NCBI GenBank assembly: GCA_013202585.1
Contig: JABMPQ010000039.1
Span: 1 to 51,410 of the forward strand
Length of the DNA: 51,410 nt
Direction: 5' to 3'
Source: Parcubacteria group bacterium
GTDB lineage: Bacteria; Patescibacteriota; JABMPQ01
In this document: in pieces, positions 4,743 through 49,926 of the stretch
Layout of the letters: every line of letters begins with the position of its first letter
Numbering within the stretch: the stretch's first letter is position 1
The notes under the pieces: generated by a model
What the model was told of the DNA's origin: nothing
The model's database searches: none
The model's input: the letters and a program-made list of their open reading frames with translations, nothing else
Program-made: the position numbers and the translations under genes

Positions 4743-6329
4743 ATGGGAAACCAAAACCCACAATCAGACGTTACCTTATTCGGCGAAACCAACTTCCGTG
4801 GTCAGAGTCGCCGTTTTGGTATTAAGGTAGACGATCGTCGGCGGCACATGTATGTGGTTGGAAAAACGGGCATGGGCAAAACGACCATGATGGAGAATAT
4901 GGTGATTTCTGACATTAAAGCTGGCAATGGGGTCTGCGTGGTTGATCCCCATGGCGAGTTTGCTGACAAAATGCTTGATTATGTTCCGGCCGATCGGATC
5001 AACGACGTTGTCTATTTTAATCCGGGTGATGTTGATAATCCGATTGCTTTTAATGTGATGGAGAATATTGATCCTGACCATAAGCATTTGGTGGCTTCAG
5101 GACTGCTGGGTGTATTCAAAAAGATCTGGGCTGATTCTTGGGGTCCGCGTTTGGAATATGTTTTGCGCAATACTATCCTCGCTTTGATGGATTATCCGGG
5201 CAGCACTTTGCTCGGTATCATGAAAATGCTGACAGATAAAGCTTTTCGCAATAAAGTGATCAAGAAGGTGCAGGACCCAGTTGTAAAGTCTTTTTGGGTG
5301 GATGAATTTTCCAAGTATCCTGATAAATTCATGACAGAGGCGATTGCTCCGATCCAGAATAAGGTTGGACAATTCTTATCAATTTCCTTGATTAGAAATA
5401 TTGTCGGGCAGTCTAAGTCAACTCTGGATATGCGTGACATCATGGATAATCGGAAAATATTATTGCTTAATTTAGCTAAAGGAAGAGTAGGTGAGGATGC
5501 CTCGGCTCTTTTTGGAGCGATGGTGATTACCAAGGTTCAGCTGGCAGCGATGAGTCGAGTTGATATACCCGAGGAGGAACGAGCCGACTTTTATCTTTAC
5601 GTTGATGAATTCCAGAATTTTGCCACCGAGAGTTTCGCTGATATCCTGTCTGAAGCGCGTAAGTATCATCTAGATTTGATAATGGCTCACCAGTATATTG
5701 ATCAGCTAGCCGAGGAAGTTCGCTATGCTGTCTTTGGTAATGTCGGCACTATTGTCTGTTTTCGAATTGGAGCAGCCGACGCCGAAGTGCTAGTTAAGGA
5801 ATTTGAACCAGTTTTTGATGAAACTGACCTAGTCAATCTAACTAAATTTCATGTGTATCTGAAGTTGATGATAGAGGGAGTGGCTAGTCAGGCTTTTTCA
5901 GCCACGACGTTACCGCCGCTATGGGATACTGAGGGTAACAGAGATAAAATTGTTGAAATCTCTCGCGAGCGCTATGCTAAAAAGCGAGACGTAGTTGAAG
6001 ACAAAATTGCGCGGTGGAGTGGGGTAATGGATGATGATGAGAAATCTTCGGCGCGATCTTCTGGCAGATCAAGTAGTGGTCGTTCTTCCAGTCAGAGCGA
6101 CGGTCGTTCCTCTAGCCAGAGTAGTGGTCGATCTTCTCAATCTCGAGCTAAGCCAGAAGATAAATCTCACCAACCATTCAAGAAAGCTTTTGCCACTGCT
6201 CTCAAGGGCGCAGATACAGCTAGCGCGGGAAAAAATAGTAGACAGACTGCCAGACCCCCGCGGAATAAGAGCAGAAATTCAGGAGTAAAACCAGGGCAGG
6301 TAGTAAAGGTTAACAACCAGAGCCGGTAA
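4743..6329 (+). CDS. TraG/TraD/VirD4-like (type IV coupling-type) ATPase
   Basis: Walker A VGKTGMGKTTMMENM, VDPHGEFADKML, Walker B-like DFYLYVDEFQNFAT, C-terminal Ser/Arg/Gln low-complexity tail. Confidence 0.85.
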   Translation: MGNQNPQSDVTLFGETNFRGQSRRFGIKVDDRRRHMYVVGKTGMGKTTMMENMVISDIKAGNGVCVVDPHGEFADKMLDYVPADRINDVVYFNPGDVDNPIAFNVMENIDPDHKHLVASGLLGVFKKIWADSWGPRLEYVLRNTILALMDYPGSTLLGIMKMLTDKAFRNKVIKKVQDPVVKSFWVDEFSKYPDKFMTEAIAPIQNKVGQFLSISLIRNIVGQSKSTLDMRDIMDNRKILLLNLAKGRVGEDASALFGAMVITKVQLAAMSRVDIPEEERADFYLYVDEFQNFATESFADILSEARKYHLDLIMAHQYIDQLAEEVRYAVFGNVGTIVCFRIGAADAEVLVKEFEPVFDETDLVNLTKFHVYLKLMIEGVASQAFSATTLPPLWDTEGNRDKIVEISRERYAKKRDVVEDKIARWSGVMDDDEKSSARSSGRSSSGRSSSQSDGRSSSQSSGRSSQSRAKPEDKSHQPFKKAFATALKGADTASAGKNSRQTARPPRNKSRNSGVKPGQVVKVNNQSR

Positions 6330-7638: not shown

Positions 7639-9567
7639 ATGACTACGGCCGAGCTAAGAAAAAAATACTTAGATTTTTTTAAGCAGAAAGGGCATGCTAT
7701 TATCCCTTCCGCTTCTTTGTTGCCGGAGAATGATCCGACTACTCTTTTTACTGGTTCCGGTATGCAGCCAATGATTCCTTACTTGCTGGGCGAAAAGCAT
7801 CCGCAGGGAGCACTTTTAGCTGATTCGCAGAAGTGTTTTCGCTCCCAGGATATAGATGAGGTGGGCGACAATCACCATACGACATTTTTTGAAATGCTAG
7901 GTAATTGGTCGTTGGGAGATTATTTTAAAGAGGAGCAAATCCCCTGGTTGTTTGAGTTTTTGACGGACGTGGTTGGATTGGATCCGGCGCGAATTTACGT
8001 TTCTGTTTTTAAAGGTAAAAATGAAATTGATATTCCACGGGATGAAGATTCGGCTCAACTTTGGCAGGATGTTTTTGCGGGGGCTGGCATTGAAGCTAAA
8101 ATAGTTGATGGAGCAGAAAAAAAGGGGATGCAAAAGGGAAGAATATTTTACTACGACGAAACGGAAAATTGGTGGTCGCGCAGTGGGGTGACAAGCAATA
8201 TGCCAGCGGGTGAGCCGGGTGGGCCGGACTCAGAGATTTTTTGGGATTTTGGGGAACAACTTGGCATTCATGAAAAGTCAGAATACAAAGATCAACCTTG
8301 CCATGTTAACTGCAATTGCGGTCGGTTTAATGAAATTGGCAATAGTGTCTTTATGCAGTACAGGAAGACTGATAGTGGCTTTGAATCATTGCCGCATCCC
8401 AATATTGACTTTGGTGGTGGTTTGGAGCGGATGGTGATGGCGAGCATTGATACGCCCGATGTTTTTAAGATTGATACTTTCGTGCCGGTTATTACTAAGA
8501 TTGAAGAAATTAGTGGGCAGAGTTATGATGCTGGTGACGAGAGTGTTATGAAAGCAATGCGGATTATTGCTGATCACATCCGGGCAGCGACGATGATTAT
8601 GGCCGATGTGAATGGCGTGGAACCTTCCAAAGCTGATCAGGGATATATGGTGCGGCGATTGATTAGGCGGGCAGTACGTTATGGTAAGCAGATTGGTATT
8701 GAGGAAGAGTCCTGGACTAAAGGAATTGCTGAAATTATAATTGACGATTACAAGGCTGTATATCCGGAGGTGGAGAAGAAGAAGGAGTTTGTGGTTAGTA
8801 GCTTAGAGGAAGAGGAGAAAAAATTTAGTAAGACATTGGCTAAAGGACTCAAGGAATTTAAAAAATGGCATTCAGACCCTGTGGTTTATTGGGAAAATGA
8901 GTCTGCTGGTAAAGTCAGCGAGAAAGTTGCGAACGCCGATAAAATTGTTCCGGGCTTTGTTGCATTTAGATTATTTACAACCTATGGCTTTCCTTTCGAA
9001 TTAATCAAAGAAATCGCCAACGAGAAAAACCTCAAAGTCGATGAGACAGGCTTTCAGCAAGAAATGAAAAAGCACCAAGCCCTCTCTCGTTCCGCCTCCG
9101 CTGGCAAATTTAAAGGGGGACTGGCCGATGCCGATGAACAAACTACCAAGCTGCACACCGCTACTCACCTGCTTCAAGCAGCGCTGCGGCAAGTGCTAGG
9201 TGACCATGTTCAGCAAAAGGGCAGTAATATTACGGCTGAGCGGCTGCGCTTTGATTTTAGTCATGGGGAAAAAATGACCCCGGAGCAGCTAACTGCTACC
9301 GAAAAGCTAGTCAACGAGTGGATTGTTGCCGAACTAGAAATAAAGTGTGAGGAGTTGCCTTACGATGAGGCTAAAAAGCGCGATGTAATTGGATTATTCG
9401 AAGACAAATACGGCGATAAGGTAAAAGTCTATGGTGTGGGCGATGTTTCTGGCGAGCTTTGCGGTGGTCCACATGTGAAAAATACTAAGGAATTAGGTAA
9501 ATTTAGGATTAAGAAAGAACAGTCTTCGGGAGCGGGGGTAAGGCGGATTAAGGCCGTATTAGGATAA
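7639..9567 (+). CDS. alaS: alanyl-tRNA synthetase (short, lacks C-terminal DHHA1/C-Ala region)
   Basis: LRKKYLDFFKQKGH, SLLPENDPTTLFTGSGMQPM, DEVGDNHHTTFFEMLGNWSLGDYFK, THLLQAALRQVLG, CGGPHVKNT; ends right after the editing domain. Confidence 0.96.
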   Translation: MTTAELRKKYLDFFKQKGHAIIPSASLLPENDPTTLFTGSGMQPMIPYLLGEKHPQGALLADSQKCFRSQDIDEVGDNHHTTFFEMLGNWSLGDYFKEEQIPWLFEFLTDVVGLDPARIYVSVFKGKNEIDIPRDEDSAQLWQDVFAGAGIEAKIVDGAEKKGMQKGRIFYYDETENWWSRSGVTSNMPAGEPGGPDSEIFWDFGEQLGIHEKSEYKDQPCHVNCNCGRFNEIGNSVFMQYRKTDSGFESLPHPNIDFGGGLERMVMASIDTPDVFKIDTFVPVITKIEEISGQSYDAGDESVMKAMRIIADHIRAATMIMADVNGVEPSKADQGYMVRRLIRRAVRYGKQIGIEEESWTKGIAEIIIDDYKAVYPEVEKKKEFVVSSLEEEEKKFSKTLAKGLKEFKKWHSDPVVYWENESAGKVSEKVANADKIVPGFVAFRLFTTYGFPFELIKEIANEKNLKVDETGFQQEMKKHQALSRSASAGKFKGGLADADEQTTKLHTATHLLQAALRQVLGDHVQQKGSNITAERLRFDFSHGEKMTPEQLTATEKLVNEWIVAELEIKCEELPYDEAKKRDVIGLFEDKYGDKVKVYGVGDVSGELCGGPHVKNTKELGKFRIKKEQSSGAGVRRIKAVLG

Positions 9568-43760: not shown

Positions 43761-44006
43761 ATGAAATTCTATTATACATATGTCCTATCGAGCAAAGATG
43801 GTAGGTTGTATGTCGGTTACTCTGAGAACATTAGGAAAAGAGTAGCAGAGCATCAACGAGGATTAGTTAGGTCGACCAAGTCTTATAGGCCATGGCAATT
43901 AGTGTACTATGAGGCTTGCTTGGAGAAGGAAGATGCGATAAAAAGAGAGAAACAGTTTAAGACTGGTTTCGGCCGTGCCTATTTAAAAAGAAGGATAAGA
44001 ATTTAA
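43761..44006 (+). CDS. GIY-YIG nuclease family protein
   Basis: YYTYVLSSKDGRLYVGYSENIRKRVAEHQRG...WQLVYYEACLEKEDAIKREKQFKTG. Confidence 0.92.
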   Translation: MKFYYTYVLSSKDGRLYVGYSENIRKRVAEHQRGLVRSTKSYRPWQLVYYEACLEKEDAIKREKQFKTGFGRAYLKRRIRI

Positions 44007-44014
44007 ATAATAAA

Positions 44015-44086
44015 TGGGGAGTAGCCAAGTGGTAAGGCACCAGGTTTTGATCCTGTGATTCGGGGGTTCGAATCCCTCCTCCCCAG
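44015..44086 (+). tRNA. tRNA-Gln, anticodon TTG
   Basis: Acceptor TGGGGAG/CTCCCCA, anticodon arm CAGGTTTTGATCCTG (anticodon TTG), T arm GGGGGTTCGAATCCCTC; CCA not encoded. Confidence 0.95.
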
Positions 44087-44125
44087 GAAAATATTATCTA
44101 TTAGAACTCGGCAGTCTGGAGCGAG

Positions 44126-44150
44126 AAAGCCCTAATTAAAGGGCTTTTTA
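44126..44150 (+). terminator. Rho-independent terminator downstream of tRNA-Gln
   Basis: AAAGCCCT aattaa AGGGCTTT TT. Confidence 0.7.
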
Positions 44151-44392
44151 TGATGAAAGGGGGAGTTCTAATTGGGGTTTGAGCGGGGAGAGTGGGATTT
44201 AGAACTGGGTTGGTTTCGAGCAAATTGTGTTGACATAATTATATATTTATCGCATATTAAATAGTCGTTCTGGTACCACCCTTTTTCTTTATGGAGTTCA
44301 TTTTAAGTCCTGTAATCTTAGTGAATGTGCGTGTCTTTCTAAAGAATGAGCTTTAGAAGGAAATGAACATTTATCATCTTGGAAGGTGAATT

Positions 44393-44587
44393 ATGTCACA
44401 AGGAGCAAATTGCTCAGACGTCGATCGTGTTTTAAGTAATACGGGACCCATATCTGATGAAGTATTAGAACAAGTGGGAGAACATCTGGAAACCTGCAAG
44501 CGCTGTCGGGCTGTCCTTGAGCTTGGCGAACTAATACAGATTCCGGACGATGAACTAAGGGAGTTATTAAAAAATGTCGAGCAATAA
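44393..44587 (+). CDS. small zf-HC2-like zinc finger protein
   Basis: 64 aa with HLETCKRCRAVLEL; GGAAGGTG upstream of ATG. Confidence 0.55.
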   Translation: MSQGANCSDVDRVLSNTGPISDEVLEQVGEHLETCKRCRAVLELGELIQIPDDELRELLKNVEQ

Positions 44588-44714
44588 CTTCTTCTGGTGG
44601 GTGAAGGAAAACCACGTTCCTAGCGCGATCGGTATGGTCAACGATAGATATCTTCAAAGACACACACAAATGATTTATGTAAAAGGAGGTGTCTGTCGTG
44701 ACCAAAAAAACTGA
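44574..44714 (+). CDS. small orphan protein overlapping both neighbours (not in ORF track)
   Basis: My translation: MSSNNFFWWVKENHVPSAIGMVNDRYLQRHTQMIYVKGGVCRDQKN; AGGGAG upstream; overlaps 44393-44587 and 44698-44901. Confidence 0.4.
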   Translation: MSSNNFFWWVKENHVPSAIGMVNDRYLQRHTQMIYVKGGVCRDQKN

Positions 44715-44901
44715 ACCGCTGAAACGTAACATTCTTCGCCCCGAACGACCACCCTGGCCTGATGACCCCAAGTCTATGAAGCTTTATCGTCGACACGCCG
44801 AGGATCTTGACGAGATCTGGAGAGGACACTCTCCAGTTATTCTCGGTACAATGTCCCAAACATTCGATGATGGTGATGGAGACGAGAGCTCAGAAGATTA
44901 G
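44698..44901 (+). CDS. small orphan protein
   Basis: GTG start preceded by AAAGGAGGTGTCTGTC; 67 aa with basic N-terminus and acidic DDGDGDESSED tail. Confidence 0.55.
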   Translation: MTKKTEPLKRNILRPERPPWPDDPKSMKLYRRHAEDLDEIWRGHSPVILGTMSQTFDDGDGDESSED

Positions 44902-44954
44902 AACTTTCAACCCCCTGGCTAGCACGCTACCATACGTACTAGCCTTTTTTAATA

Positions 44955-45117
44955 TATATAGTGAGTAGCAGGGTAGGGTAAAATCTGATAATATATAATT
45001 AGACTTGTGGACGTAAATCAGGAACATAAACATATTCCTCCTGCCGCTGAATTATAGTTCTAACGTTGTCCACGATGTGCAGTAGATTATTTTAAGGCTT
45101 ACATCAGCCTTTTTTTG
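44955..45117 (+). repeat. cassette-array repeat, copy A; contains candidate ncRNA about 45003-45117
   Basis: TATATAGTGAGTAGCAGGGTAGGGTAAAATCTGATAATATATAATTAG...AAGGCTTACATCAGCCTTTTTTT; TATAAT at 44994-44999; GTGGAC (45007-45012)/GTCCAC (45068-45073). Confidence 0.85.
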
Positions 45118-45200
45118 ATACAGAGTTTGGCTCTGGAAACAAATAATAAAAAACGTTACAATAACCGTCAGAGAAACATACAGTCAAGGGAGGTTCTTTC

Positions 45201-46307
45201 ATGGACTGGGGATATATGCTTGGTAGCACCTTTAAAACGCGCTGTGGCTGGATCTGGGAGATAGATAGGAGAGTGCGAGCCGGTCAGCTGCCTCCCGCCT
45301 ACCAGCGAACGGTAGTTAATCTGAGCGCAGCTTACTTCTTCTGGGGTTTGCTCAGTCGTCATTTGATCCGTGTGAGAAAAAGCTTCTCGCCCGTCGAGCT
45401 GCTAGTATCTATCACGGACTGGTGTCCTCACCAATGCCGCTATTGCTACAATCGCTCTGGTCAGGGTGAGTGTAAAGCCACCTACATCAATTTGGATCGG
45501 TTGAATGTAATCCTGGATGAGGTAAAAAAGGCTTTTGGCATCCGCTTTGCTGTCATCACTGGGGGAGAACCTTTTCCCTATGTGCTGAAGCTAGCTCAAA
45601 GACGACCTGACTTCACCTTCTTCGTTTACACCAGTGGGAATATCAGCGAACGTGCTTGCCAAGAAATGGTCAAGTTGGGTAACATCATTCCAGCTTTGAC
45701 TATTGTGGATGTCAATCCGGAGGTGCATGATTATATTCGGGGATCAGGAAGCTTTCAGCGGATTATGACAGCCCGGACACGGTTGCAATCTCATCAGCTT
45801 CCCTGGGGTTGGTCATTGACTTCATCACGGATCAATTTCCAACAACTGGTCAAGGGTGGACTGCTGGACAAGCTGGCGAGTTATCAGCCCTACTTTATCC
45901 GTGCCATGCCATGGATGCCAGTGGGACGATCAGATGAAGACCAAGTATTGTCGCTGGCGGAAATGGCGCAGGTGGGAAGTAATATTCGGGAGGCGCAGCA
46001 GCGAGGTATAGTGGTTTTCGACTATATCACTGCGCCAGTGGGTTATCCTTGTCTGGCGGGCGGGCGGCGTAGTTTCTTTGTGGCGCCAGATGGAAAAGGC
46101 GGCCTACGTATTTCACCTTGTGTCTTCATGGAAGGAGAGGTATCAGTCCCGATCACCTTTCGTGTTGATGGCTCGTCTACTCTACTGGAAACACTCCAGA
46201 ATAATCCTTGGTTTGTAAGTGCTAGAGATCTAGCGGGTCGTCATCAGTGCATTATTCACGCGAATCGCAGTGACTGGCCTCAGCTGGTGCGAGGAGAAAA
46301 AAGATAG
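45201..46307 (+). CDS. radical SAM protein
   Basis: SITDWCPHQCRYCYNRSG (CxxxCxxC) and VITGGEPF; GGGAGGTTCTTTC SD before ATG. Confidence 0.85.
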   Translation: MDWGYMLGSTFKTRCGWIWEIDRRVRAGQLPPAYQRTVVNLSAAYFFWGLLSRHLIRVRKSFSPVELLVSITDWCPHQCRYCYNRSGQGECKATYINLDRLNVILDEVKKAFGIRFAVITGGEPFPYVLKLAQRRPDFTFFVYTSGNISERACQEMVKLGNIIPALTIVDVNPEVHDYIRGSGSFQRIMTARTRLQSHQLPWGWSLTSSRINFQQLVKGGLLDKLASYQPYFIRAMPWMPVGRSDEDQVLSLAEMAQVGSNIREAQQRGIVVFDYITAPVGYPCLAGGRRSFFVAPDGKGGLRISPCVFMEGEVSVPITFRVDGSSTLLETLQNNPWFVSARDLAGRHQCIIHANRSDWPQLVRGEKR

Positions 46308-46358
46308 ATTGCTTGAGGGGATAGTTTCTACAACTATAACCCTCTTTTTTTATCCAAA

Positions 46359-46520
46359 TATATAGTGAGTAGCGGGGTGGGGTAAAATCTGATATTATAA
46401 GCTCAAGCTTGTGGACGCAAATCAGGTATATAAATATACTCATTCTGTCTCTGAATTATAGTTCTAACGTCGTCTACGATTTGCAGTAGATATTATTAAG
46501 GCTTGTTTAAGCCTTTTTTT
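46359..46520 (+). repeat. cassette-array repeat, copy B
   Basis: TATATAGTGAGTAGCGGGGTGGGGTAAAATCTGATATTATAAG...AAGGCTTGTTTAAGCCTTTTTTT; GTGGAC (46411-46416)/GTCTAC (46472-46477). Confidence 0.85.
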
Positions 46521-46654
46521 GATGGGGGAGAGTGTGGACGGTAGAACTACTAGATAAAAAAACTGCTCACAACGACTTGACTCTCGACACGCTGTACGTT
46601 ATTTTCAAAGTACAAGATGTCAAGCTAGAGCAATGTTCTAGTAAAGGAGGTGGC

Positions 46655-46819
46655 GTGTTATTGATCGTAATGATTTTTTTTGTCTGTTCAGGTTTAGCAT
46701 TCGTACTTTTAGCGTTTGAGGCGTTCGAGGGCGGCGATGCTCCTATCGGATTAGTACTTCTCGTCGTCGCCGTTTTAGTGTTCTCATGCACGAAGACTGC
46801 CTGCGGGGCGCTTTTCTAA
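46655..46819 (+). CDS. small two-TM membrane protein
   Basis: GTG start preceded by AAAGGAGGTGGC; VLLIVMIFFVCSGLAFVLLAFEAFEGGDAPIGLVLLVVAVLVFSCTKTACGALF; start refined from the listed ORF. Confidence 0.55.
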   Translation: MLLIVMIFFVCSGLAFVLLAFEAFEGGDAPIGLVLLVVAVLVFSCTKTACGALF

Positions 46820-46890
46820 AGCTCTTTTCACTTGTTCATTCGCAAGCAGTATATGAGGCTTCAACTGAAGACCTCTTTTTTTATCCTCAA

Positions 46891-46917
46891 TATATAGTGA
46901 GTAGCAGGGTAGGGTAA
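46891..46917 (+). repeat. truncated cassette-array repeat (5' stub)
   Basis: TATATAGTGAGTAGCAGGGTAGGGTAA identical to the start of copy A, then unrelated sequence. Confidence 0.85.
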
Positions 46918-46945
46918 TAAAAAACTGCTCACCGTGTGGGTGGGC
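46918..46945 (-). terminator. minus-strand Rho-independent terminator
   Basis: On the minus strand CTGCCCACC CACAC GGTGAGCAG TTTTTT, downstream of the 46966-47364 gene. Confidence 0.75.
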
Positions 46946-46965
46946 AGCACGTTGCAAATTTACTA

Positions 46966-47364
46966 CTAATACGTAGTAGTGGCTAAAAGACAAAGAAAAT
47001 TAATCAAGACAAATGTACTGATAATTAAAGTTAAAATCAATATCTTTGTCAGCTTCTTTCTAAATTTATCGATTATTAATTTGGAAGCAGTTCCAGTAAT
47101 AGTAACAATAATTATATTAAAAACTGAATAAGTTAAATCGCTAAATTCGAATAATGGATCACATAGAATAGCAATATATAAAGCCATACCACTTATATAA
47201 AGACTGAATATATACAAATCAGCTATAATTTCCTCTGGATAGAAAGGCCATATAGATTCGATAGGATCTACAACAATAGGGACGAAATTTACAAATATAA
47301 CTACCAAAACTCCAACCCCCAGTCCTATATAAGTGCCCCCATTAATATATTTTTTCCAGTTCAT
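46966..47364 (-). CDS. orphan multi-TM membrane protein
   Basis: 132 aa with several hydrophobic segments (TYIGLGVGVLVVIFVNFVPIVV, ILILTLIISTFVLINFLCLLA). Confidence 0.5.
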   Translation of the reverse strand: MNWKKYINGGTYIGLGVGVLVVIFVNFVPIVVDPIESIWPFYPEEIIADLYIFSLYISGMALYIAILCDPLFEFSDLTYSVFNIIIVTITGTASKLIIDKFRKKLTKILILTLIISTFVLINFLCLLATTTY

Positions 47365-47472
47365 ATTAGTTAACTAGTAAGCTAAGCGTATTCAGTATAT
47401 TACATGAATGGGTTATTTGTATAGAATAATCAATAAAGTTAATTTGACACCGTGAGATGTCGAATTGAATGG

Positions 47473-47500
47473 ATAAAAAAACTGCTCACCGTGGGTGGCA
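47473..47500 (-). terminator. minus-strand Rho-independent terminator, near-duplicate of the one at 46918
   Basis: Plus strand ATAAAAAAACTGCTCACCGTGGGTGGCAGCAG; reverse complement is a hairpin plus T-run downstream of the 47577 gene. Confidence 0.65.
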
Positions 47501-47576
47501 GCAGCGTGAAGAACAATGTCAGAACAGTAGTTTGTTGGTGGGCACAATGTACTCAACGAGAACGCGAATCAGGATA

Positions 47577-47849
47577 CTACTCTCCCAAAGTTGGCAAATC
47601 TCCTGGCGAATTTAACTTCAGTGGCGCATACTTGATAACTCCTCTTCCAGGAAGTTTGATGCCACCTTTAACTTGCTTTTGCCATCCTTGCTCACCAACG
47701 CCTTCGCCAGCGAAACACCACCCTCCGAAATCTCCAAGGGTCCATTGTAGATAACGTGCGGGGGAACCATCCTTAAACTCTACTTTGAGCACTTCCCCAT
47801 CGAAGTTCCCTGTCACCCCAGCCATTGTCATCAACGATCCAGTATCCAT
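47577..47849 (-). CDS. small orphan protein
   Basis: Likely start at M15 of the listed ORF (MDTGSLMTMAGVTGNFDGEVLKVEFKDG...), preceded by CTGGAGGTAATT. Confidence 0.5.
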   Translation of the reverse strand: MDTGSLMTMAGVTGNFDGEVLKVEFKDGSPARYLQWTLGDFGGWCFAGEGVGEQGWQKQVKGGIKLPGRGVIKYAPLKLNSPGDLPTLGE

Positions 47850-47968
47850 AATTACCTCCAGGTTTGCAGTTGGACAATCATTCCTCAACAAAGATATTCC
47901 ATTTATGGACTATCTAATCTCACCAAAGTGCAATTATTATATTCTACATATCTCCTTGATATTGTCTA

Positions 47969-48121
47969 GAGTAGCGGGGTAGGGTAAAATCTGATAATAT
48001 ACAATTAGACTTGTGGACGCAAATCAGGAATGTGAATATACTCACTCTGTTGCTGAATTATAGTTCTAACGTTGTTCACGATTTGCAGTAGATATTATTA
48101 AGGCTTATTCAAGCCTTTTTT
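47969..48121 (+). repeat. cassette-array repeat, copy C
   Basis: GAGTAGCGGGGTAGGGTAAAATCTGATAATATACAATTAG...AAGGCTTATTCAAGCCTTTTTT; GTGGAC (48013-48018)/GTTCAC (48074-48079). Confidence 0.85.
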
Positions 48122-48282
48122 GGTTGGGGGAAAGTGGGATCAGACTACTAGAAAAGTGCCAAATGTGTGTACACATTACCAAAGTGACTTGTATTTTATC
48201 GTTGTTTGTGTTTTAATGAAATGCTACTAATCACGAATGATCTTTTTACGTTGAGCCCAACCCAAGAAATAGGAGACATGGA

Positions 48283-48711
48283 ATGACTCAGCAACAACAA
48301 CACATCATCGACCTCGACGCCGACCCTTTTCTGCCCAAGGGTTGGAAGGGTGTGGAGGAGCATCGGAAGGGCGGCCAGTTTGAGTTTGACCCCACCCAGG
48401 TCGCGCTCTACCTAAGCGAGCGCCAGAAGGGCGGGAAGGTTATCGGTGGTCACGACCTCCGCGAGGAGTTGAAGGACAGGCCGGTCTTTAACGCCAATCT
48501 CCTCGACTGGTATCTGGTGCATCCCGAGCACATCCCCGAGGAGTGGAAAGGAAAGGCGATCTGCTTCTGGGGGACCATCTACCGCAACGCCCACGGCAGG
48601 CTCGTGATCCGTTGCCTCATCTGGAACGGCGATCGGTGGGACTGGAGCTACCGCTGGTTCGACGAAGTCTTCCGCGGTAGCGGCCCGGCGGCCGTTCCCG
48701 CAAGCGCTTAG
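48283..48711 (+). CDS. orphan 142-aa protein, GC-rich gene
   Basis: MTQQQQHIIDLDADPFLPKGWKGVEEHRKGGQFEFDPTQVALYL...; AATAGGAGACATGG upstream; clearly higher GC than surroundings. Confidence 0.7.
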   Translation: MTQQQQHIIDLDADPFLPKGWKGVEEHRKGGQFEFDPTQVALYLSERQKGGKVIGGHDLREELKDRPVFNANLLDWYLVHPEHIPEEWKGKAICFWGTIYRNAHGRLVIRCLIWNGDRWDWSYRWFDEVFRGSGPAAVPASA

Positions 48712-48818
48712 CCCTTGGGCTTTAGTTCTTTGGTCTCTGATTTCTGACCTTTGAACTCTGCCCTTGGATTTCGAACATTCAACCCGCGTTAGTTTTACCG
48801 ACTAGCGTGGGTCTTTTT

Positions 48819-48949
48819 TATATAGTGAAGTAGCAGGGTAGGGTAAAATCTGATAATATATAATTAGACTTGTGGACGTAAATCAGGAACATAAACATAC
48901 TCACCCTGTCTCTGAATTATAGTTCTAACGTTGTCCACGATTTGCAGTA
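48819..48949 (+). repeat. cassette-array repeat, copy D (3' terminator part missing)
   Basis: TATATAGTGAAGTAGCAGGGTAGGGTAAAATCTGATAATATATAATTAG...GTTGTCCACGATTTGCAGTA; GTGGAC (48872-48877)/GTCCAC (48933-48938). Confidence 0.85.
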
Positions 48950-49143: not shown

Positions 49144-49926
49144 ATGAAAAAATCACTTCTCCTGACACTAGCCGGATTAGTGGTCCTAACTGTTCTTGCT
49201 TTCGGCTTACCAAGTCAAACCAAAGCTTCCGGTCCAGCTTCGGAACATCTCAAGGGATACATTCTTTTACAAGTAGAGAATAATGGCGAAGCGTGGTATA
49301 TCGATCCTCAAGATGGATATCGTTATTACCTGGCTCGTCCGACAGATGCTTTTAATATAATGCGTTTACTGGGTTTGGGAGCTACTCACGCCGACATTGA
49401 AAAAATCCCATCTAATTTACACAATGATAGCGATTTATTGTTCGCCAACATGCATATCGGAGAAATATTACTAGATGTCGAACGTAATGGCGAGGCTTGG
49501 TATATCTATCCAGGGGATATGTGGGGTTACTATCTCGATCGTCCAGGCACCGCTTTTCAGGTTATGCGTAATACCGGACTAGGGGCAACTGATAGCACAG
49601 TGATGGGTATCACTCCTAATATATCTATTTCCGGTGTGCGTTATGATGGCACTGGCTCAGCTGAGCCGGATGAATTTGTCCAGCTAGTCAATAATGGTCG
49701 GATGGCTCAGGATGTTGGCCAGTGGACGATAGAGGATGGTGATGGACACGAATTCGAATTTCCCGGAGGATATACTATCCAGCCTGGTGAATTTGTCAGA
49801 ATTTTTACCAACACGGGCGATCTTTCCTTTGATAGTGGCACAGCTATTTGGAATAATGACGGCGATACTTGCTTCTTGTATGGCTCCACAGGCTCGCTGG
49901 TTGATATGTATGCTTATAGTTTTTAA
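49144..49926 (+). CDS. secreted protein with two tandem repeats and C-terminal lamin-tail-like domain
   Basis: Signal peptide; repeats GYILLQVENNGEAWYIDPQDGYRYYLARPTDAFNIMRLLGLGAT / GEILLDVERNGEAWYIYPGDMWGYYLDRPGTAFQVMRNTGLGAT; LTD-like EPDEFVQLVNNG...DVGQWTIEDGDGHEFEFPGGYTIQPGEFVRIFT. Confidence 0.75.
   Translation: MKKSLLLTLAGLVVLTVLAFGLPSQTKASGPASEHLKGYILLQVENNGEAWYIDPQDGYRYYLARPTDAFNIMRLLGLGATHADIEKIPSNLHNDSDLLFANMHIGEILLDVERNGEAWYIYPGDMWGYYLDRPGTAFQVMRNTGLGATDSTVMGITPNISISGVRYDGTGSAEPDEFVQLVNNGRMAQDVGQWTIEDGDGHEFEFPGGYTIQPGEFVRIFTNTGDLSFDSGTAIWNNDGDTCFLYGSTGSLVDMYAYSF

Follow-up and report, generated by a model that had tools for sequence, protein, structure and literature searches.

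The 51,410-nucleotide window analysed here (Parcubacteria group bacterium, GCA_013202585.1, contig JABMPQ010000039.1, positions 1-51,410, forward strand) carries, judging from sequence comparison, small cassettes stacked in tandem behind a tRNA-Gln gene, probably moved by a large serine recombinase (LSR) acting in trans. A search of the source genome recovers the repeat that punctuates the array in four copies (44955-45118, 46359-46522, 47969-48121 and 48819-48949; E 1e-38 to 1e-82) and a 27-bp stub (46891-46917; E 9e-5), all where an earlier sequence-only reading had placed them. That reading's description of a cassette array or recombination scaffold is borne out, with the repeat being a site-specific recombination junction at which gene content varies. 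Its boundaries are revised: the array starts at tRNA-Gln (44015-44086), which that reading had overlooked, and a first cassette (44087-45082) had therefore been missed. The LTD gene placed between copies (49144-49926) is found beyond the right end of the array. The distinct terminators described at segment ends stand ahead of the stub and of copies 1, 2 and 4; copy 3 has none. Below, C1, C2, C42, C44, C48, C63 and C69 denote contigs of the source genome, which is 79% complete, and G001 is a sister species of the same genus with a 100% complete genome. The array comprises the following features.

44015-44086, + strand: tRNA-Gln(TTG), called by ARAGORN; its 3′ end is the insertion site, with GTTC at 44066, 21 nt before the end
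44087-45082, + strand: cassette 1; ORFs 44393-44587 (weak zf-HC2 match, under the cut-off) and 44689-44901; terminator 44917-44944
44955-45082, + strand: B1, putative right attachment end; core GTTCTAACGTTGTCCACGATGTGCAG at 45057-45082, 26 nt
45083-46486, + strand: cassette 2; A end with terminator 45094-45111; radical SAM gene 45201-46307 (PF04055, 1.2e-15); terminator 46315-46344
46359-46486, + strand: B2; core 46461-46486
46487-48088, + strand: cassette 3, probably what remains of two or three cassettes fused together; A end with terminator 46498-46515; ORFs 46532-46819 (+), 46966-47364 (-) and 47577-47891 (-)
46891-46917, + strand: B stub, the first 27 nt of B, fused to A fragment 46918-46948
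47476-47505, + strand: A remnant without B, repeat family D3
47969-48088, + strand: B3; core 48063-48088
48089-48947, + strand: cassette 4; A end with terminator 48100-48117; ORF 48283-48711; terminator 48782-48812
48581-48703, + strand: VR-like stretch at the 3′ side of the cassette-4 gene, with a match to the TR of the DGR on C42
48819-48947, + strand: B4, the last right end, with no A after it

The repeat is a composite of two parts, with copies 1-3 consisting of B|A and copy 4 of B alone. B (~128 bp) forms the right end of one cassette, and A, with its terminator, the left end of the next. Within B, a conserved arm of ~100 bp is followed by GTTCTAACGTCGTCCACGA and then by a short copy of the tRNA 3′ end; the B of copy 1 (44955-45082) terminates in GTTCTAACGTYGTCCACGATKTGCAG, and A starts with TAGATWWTATTAAGGCTTGTTTAAGCCTTTTTTT directly past CAG. 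An attP of the serine-integrase type is expected to be roughly palindromic; here the A half is asymmetric to B, and an inverted arm further inside is only weakly enriched (9 versus 4.7). Elsewhere in the source genome and in the sister species, A and B are found apart. On C2, A lies directly 3′ of a tRNA-Gln and B follows ~700 bp on, succeeded by other DNA, and on C42 the A-to-B distance is 3 kb. These further B copies stand at C2:20042 and C42:5554, with a B stub on C48; isolated A ends occur at C2:19417 and C42:2642 and on C1, C63 and C69. The A remnants at 46918-46948 and 47476-47505 suggest that the segment 46487-48088 once held up to three cassettes. The B stubs of the window (46891-46917) and of C48 (1376-1402) both stop at B position 27 and are fused to different sequence.

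Comparison of junctions and orthologous loci demonstrates precise insertion at tRNA 3′ ends. A begins right past the tRNA discriminator base (base 73), or past a preceding B, and insertion has a single orientation relative to the tRNA. G001 has A immediately 3′ of tRNA-Trp, -Gln, -Asp and -Lys; most remaining tRNAs of the source genome and of G001 have no A. Window genes upstream of tRNA-Gln are syntenic with G001 C6 (73-86% protein identity) up to the tRNA, and the window ORFs downstream of it give 0 matches at that locus. The arrangement FtsX-tRNA-Gln|A..B|flank on C2 corresponds to FtsX-tRNA-Gln|flank on G001 C28, the flank being 91/102 identical from the junction on, and this orthologous site of G001 is, by alignment, free of a cassette. 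A flank of this type is found next to B on C42 as well, again on its right, so the flank might be the end of an older element rather than the original sequence; the cassette is absent from the G001 site under either origin. A search of the source genome and G001 for a corresponding empty tRNA-Trp site found no orthologous flank. Compared locus by locus, the two species have exchanged the anticodons (CTG, TTG) of their two tRNA-Gln genes (window 44015-44086, C2, G001 C28 and C6). Small GIY-YIG genes also adjoin tRNA genes, in the window (43761-44006) and on C69 (L022), where the gene separates tRNA-Lys from a degenerate tRNA-Lys copy, next to which A begins.

The spacing within B resembles that of serine-integrase half-sites. 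When the final eight bases of 101 tRNAs were searched for again further downstream, with non-cognate controls, GTTC was offset by +5 in 9 cases versus 0.7 in the control, and every other offset scored 0-1; many of these loci had been picked through the B core, which makes the fixed core length a dependent feature, whereas the tRNA and the spacing were not selected on, and the cases at G001 tRNA-Asn and L241 were picked without the core. All four window B copies have GTTC 26 nt from the end, versus 21 nt in the tRNA, and the B at G001 tRNA-Trp shows +6 rather than +5. In serine integrases, the bound motif (ZD) lies 5 bp further out in attP than in attB (PMC3783163).

Locus structure further demonstrates a physical link between B-type ends and LSR genes. 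At L241, an LSR element at tRNA-His lies in tandem with a 1.85-kb LSR-less M16-peptidase cassette, and both close with the same B-type end at +5, ~90 bp of it near-identical. The LSR of this helper element has resolvase, recombinase and Zn-ribbon domains and is linked to the attachment site, whereas the window cassettes themselves have no recombinase; a tyrosine recombinase also lies beside the L241 LSR. The LSR ORF of L140 continues through the B half-site, G005 combines an LSR at tRNA-Trp with cassettes bearing Trp-like ends, and G111 has an LSR at tRNA-Gln and one cassette with a Gln-like end. In 17 of 30 CPR LSR loci not selected for tRNAs, the LSR gene and a tRNA/tmRNA are convergent, and the LSR gene runs into the 3′ end of the latter. 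The sequence-only reading was right that the window contains no recombinase; outside it, the source genome has four large serine recombinases, with LSRs at tRNA-Ile, tRNA-Asn and tmRNA, and two tyrosine recombinases. This 79% complete genome yielded no complete LSR at tRNA-Gln, the LSR on C2 being cut by the contig end. No LSR was found in the 100% complete genome of G001, so its cassettes may be relics. On C44 (L189), a large serine recombinase gene (7666-9273) runs into tmRNA-like sequence beside smpB. At L197, an inverted pair of core-like sites (GTTCGAACTTCGTCCAAAAACGCCCGC, at 5558 and 7588) surrounds a gene next to an LSR at tRNA-Ser.

Each cassette consists of A, one or more genes, usually its own terminator, and B, and the cassettes are inserted behind one another. 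A supplies a terminator to the tRNA severed from its downstream region, and B represents one half of the cassette attachment site. Under the proposed mechanism, the recombinase is predicted to be a CPR-type LSR that targets tRNA 3′ ends; other elements would encode it, and it would act in trans on cassettes without an LSR, presumably via circular intermediates. Neither a cassette circle nor an excision event was seen, and a canonical LSR is not expected to use attL as a target. Arrays might grow, on one idea, through a likeness of A to the natural downstream half-site that would make the tRNA|A junction reusable.

The B element is not confined to this genus, and sequence searches demonstrate both further arrays and CPR-wide occurrence. 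Its 20-bp core AGTTCTAACGTCSTCCACGA is present at 17 loci in 257 Gb (84,980 species genomes), against an estimated chance expectation of ~1, and all 17 belong to Patescibacteria-named or unclassified 'bacterium' MAG records. In a phylum sample of 380 genomes, the core is found in 16, with at least 24 matches versus 2 for the reversed pattern; scans of viral_contigs for B returned none. Arrays of two or three occur at G143, G005 and L137, and the B end repeats the 3′ end of the upstream same-strand tRNA at L127, L128, L129, L131, L133, L134, L137, L138 and L156. The cargo is one or two genes, for example radical SAM, MFS transporter, GDSL lipase, GNAT or M16 peptidase. We lean towards a wider reading in which LSRs across the CPR habitually act on tRNA 3′ ends and minimal one- or two-gene cassettes exploit them in trans. 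Here, tRNAs would be stepwise gene-capture platforms, a serine-recombinase counterpart of integrons able to carry DGR-diversified genes.

The same cassettes could instead have been moved to tRNA 3′ ends by a tyrosine recombinase, either host Xer or an IntI-like enzyme. Tyrosine integrases usually act on such ends (PMC4701971), one or more PF00589 proteins occur in each of the B-bearing genomes searched, and the L241 element carries one. We nevertheless consider this mover unlikely: the gene abutting the tRNA is an LSR, tblastn links no tyrosine recombinase to the cassettes, and G001 has cassettes yet only a generic Xer-like protein. The identity block, mostly 3-10 nt, and the +5 half-site shift are likewise features of serine integrases. 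A search for an IntI-type integrase with a linked attI found the two PF00589 proteins of the source genome, neither linked to the cassettes. The sequence-only reading had also offered an RNA gene, and B might encode a non-coding or tRNA-like RNA and have a terminator of its own, its copies having spread by homologous recombination. A terminator-like hairpin does usually follow B (22/42 versus 3 shuffled) and a segment of B can pair on folding, but B ends vary according to which tRNA is targeted, every insertion parts A from B at one fixed point, and the cassette is missing at the orthologous locus. With no Rfam match, and with the acceptor-like pairing of the complementary arms neither kept nor covarying across phyla (by eye), this origin appears highly improbable.

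The array might also be a fossil, owing its original insertion to an integrase but its present shuffling solely to homologous recombination among the repeats; this is compatible with movement by an LSR in trans. The stubs and fused remnants, the lack of an LSR in G001 and the 70-88% identity among window copies are consistent with it. The intact LSR beside two near-identical ends in L241 speaks against it, as does the B core, which is almost invariant over CPR classes and so suggests selection. We regard a fossil state as doubtful. An IS or MITE with a resident transposase, expected to show terminal inverted repeats, target duplication and many sites, was rejected, as insertion is directly past tRNA base 73 and in a single orientation to the tRNA.

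Trans-acting movement by an LSR recalls several known systems. Staphylococcal cassette chromosome (SCC) elements stack in tandem. In SCC composite islands, the end of the housekeeping gene rlmH receives elements through the action of large serine recombinases, the enzyme class proposed here, and pseudo-SCC elements without recombinase genes exist (PMC10581047). Unlike SCC, the CPR elements target tRNA 3′ ends of many kinds, measure 0.3-4 kb with one or two genes, share an attachment half conserved over CPR classes and bring a terminator with each left end; SCC proper (ccr genes, rlmH target) was rejected since the target here is tRNA/tmRNA. Integron cassettes are similar in being one-gene units in tandem with unrelated cargo, a site at the cassette end and, on the reading proposed here, a trans-acting enzyme. 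They differ in that no IntI-attC pair is shown here, genes lie on both strands, the tRNA is the platform and the recombinase is likely serine rather than tyrosine. An integron attC, an imperfect palindrome with its boundary in the R′ box at the 3′ end, was rejected because the boundary here falls inside the B|A junction, directly after CAG. Islander/TIGER-type islands with tyrosine integrases share the tRNA 3′-end insertion, short identity block and intact tRNA, but differ in integrase class, and the CPR cassettes are small with no integrase inside. CIME/IME elements lacking integration genes are att-flanked, mobilised in trans and accrete in tandem; the CPR cassettes are much smaller, form arrays of 2 to about 6 and occur CPR-wide.

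CPR bacteria have tiny genomes, and their gene acquisition is poorly known. A keyword literature search, covering few subscription journals, found no account of serine integrases or cassettes at CPR tRNAs. The attachment signature (GTTCTAACGTCGTCCACGA plus the tRNA 3′ end) allows cassette cargo to be listed across the CPR, and the att sites could be tested as genetic tools in these bacteria. The finding also indicates that a specialisation on tRNA ends, a target normally left to tyrosine integrases, is open to serine integrases.

The cassette-4 gene (48283-48711), described earlier as a GC-rich orphan, resembles a DGR variable protein. C42 (L017) carries a DGR at 1-2444, consisting of target gene, TR and reverse transcriptase (PF00078), directly left of an A end. 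The VR-like stretch of cassette 4 (48581-48703) is identical to this TR at 95/123 positions, with changes at 14/26 TR adenines versus 11/79 other bases (Fisher p 1e-4). It resembles DGR targets in matching a same-genome TR with adenine-biased differences. Unlike them, it sits in a tRNA cassette on another contig, and its cognate TR is uncertain. The C42 target itself is clean, with 14 of its 15 differences at TR adenines; the cassette-4 gene shows the adenine bias against the same TR and is more diverged.
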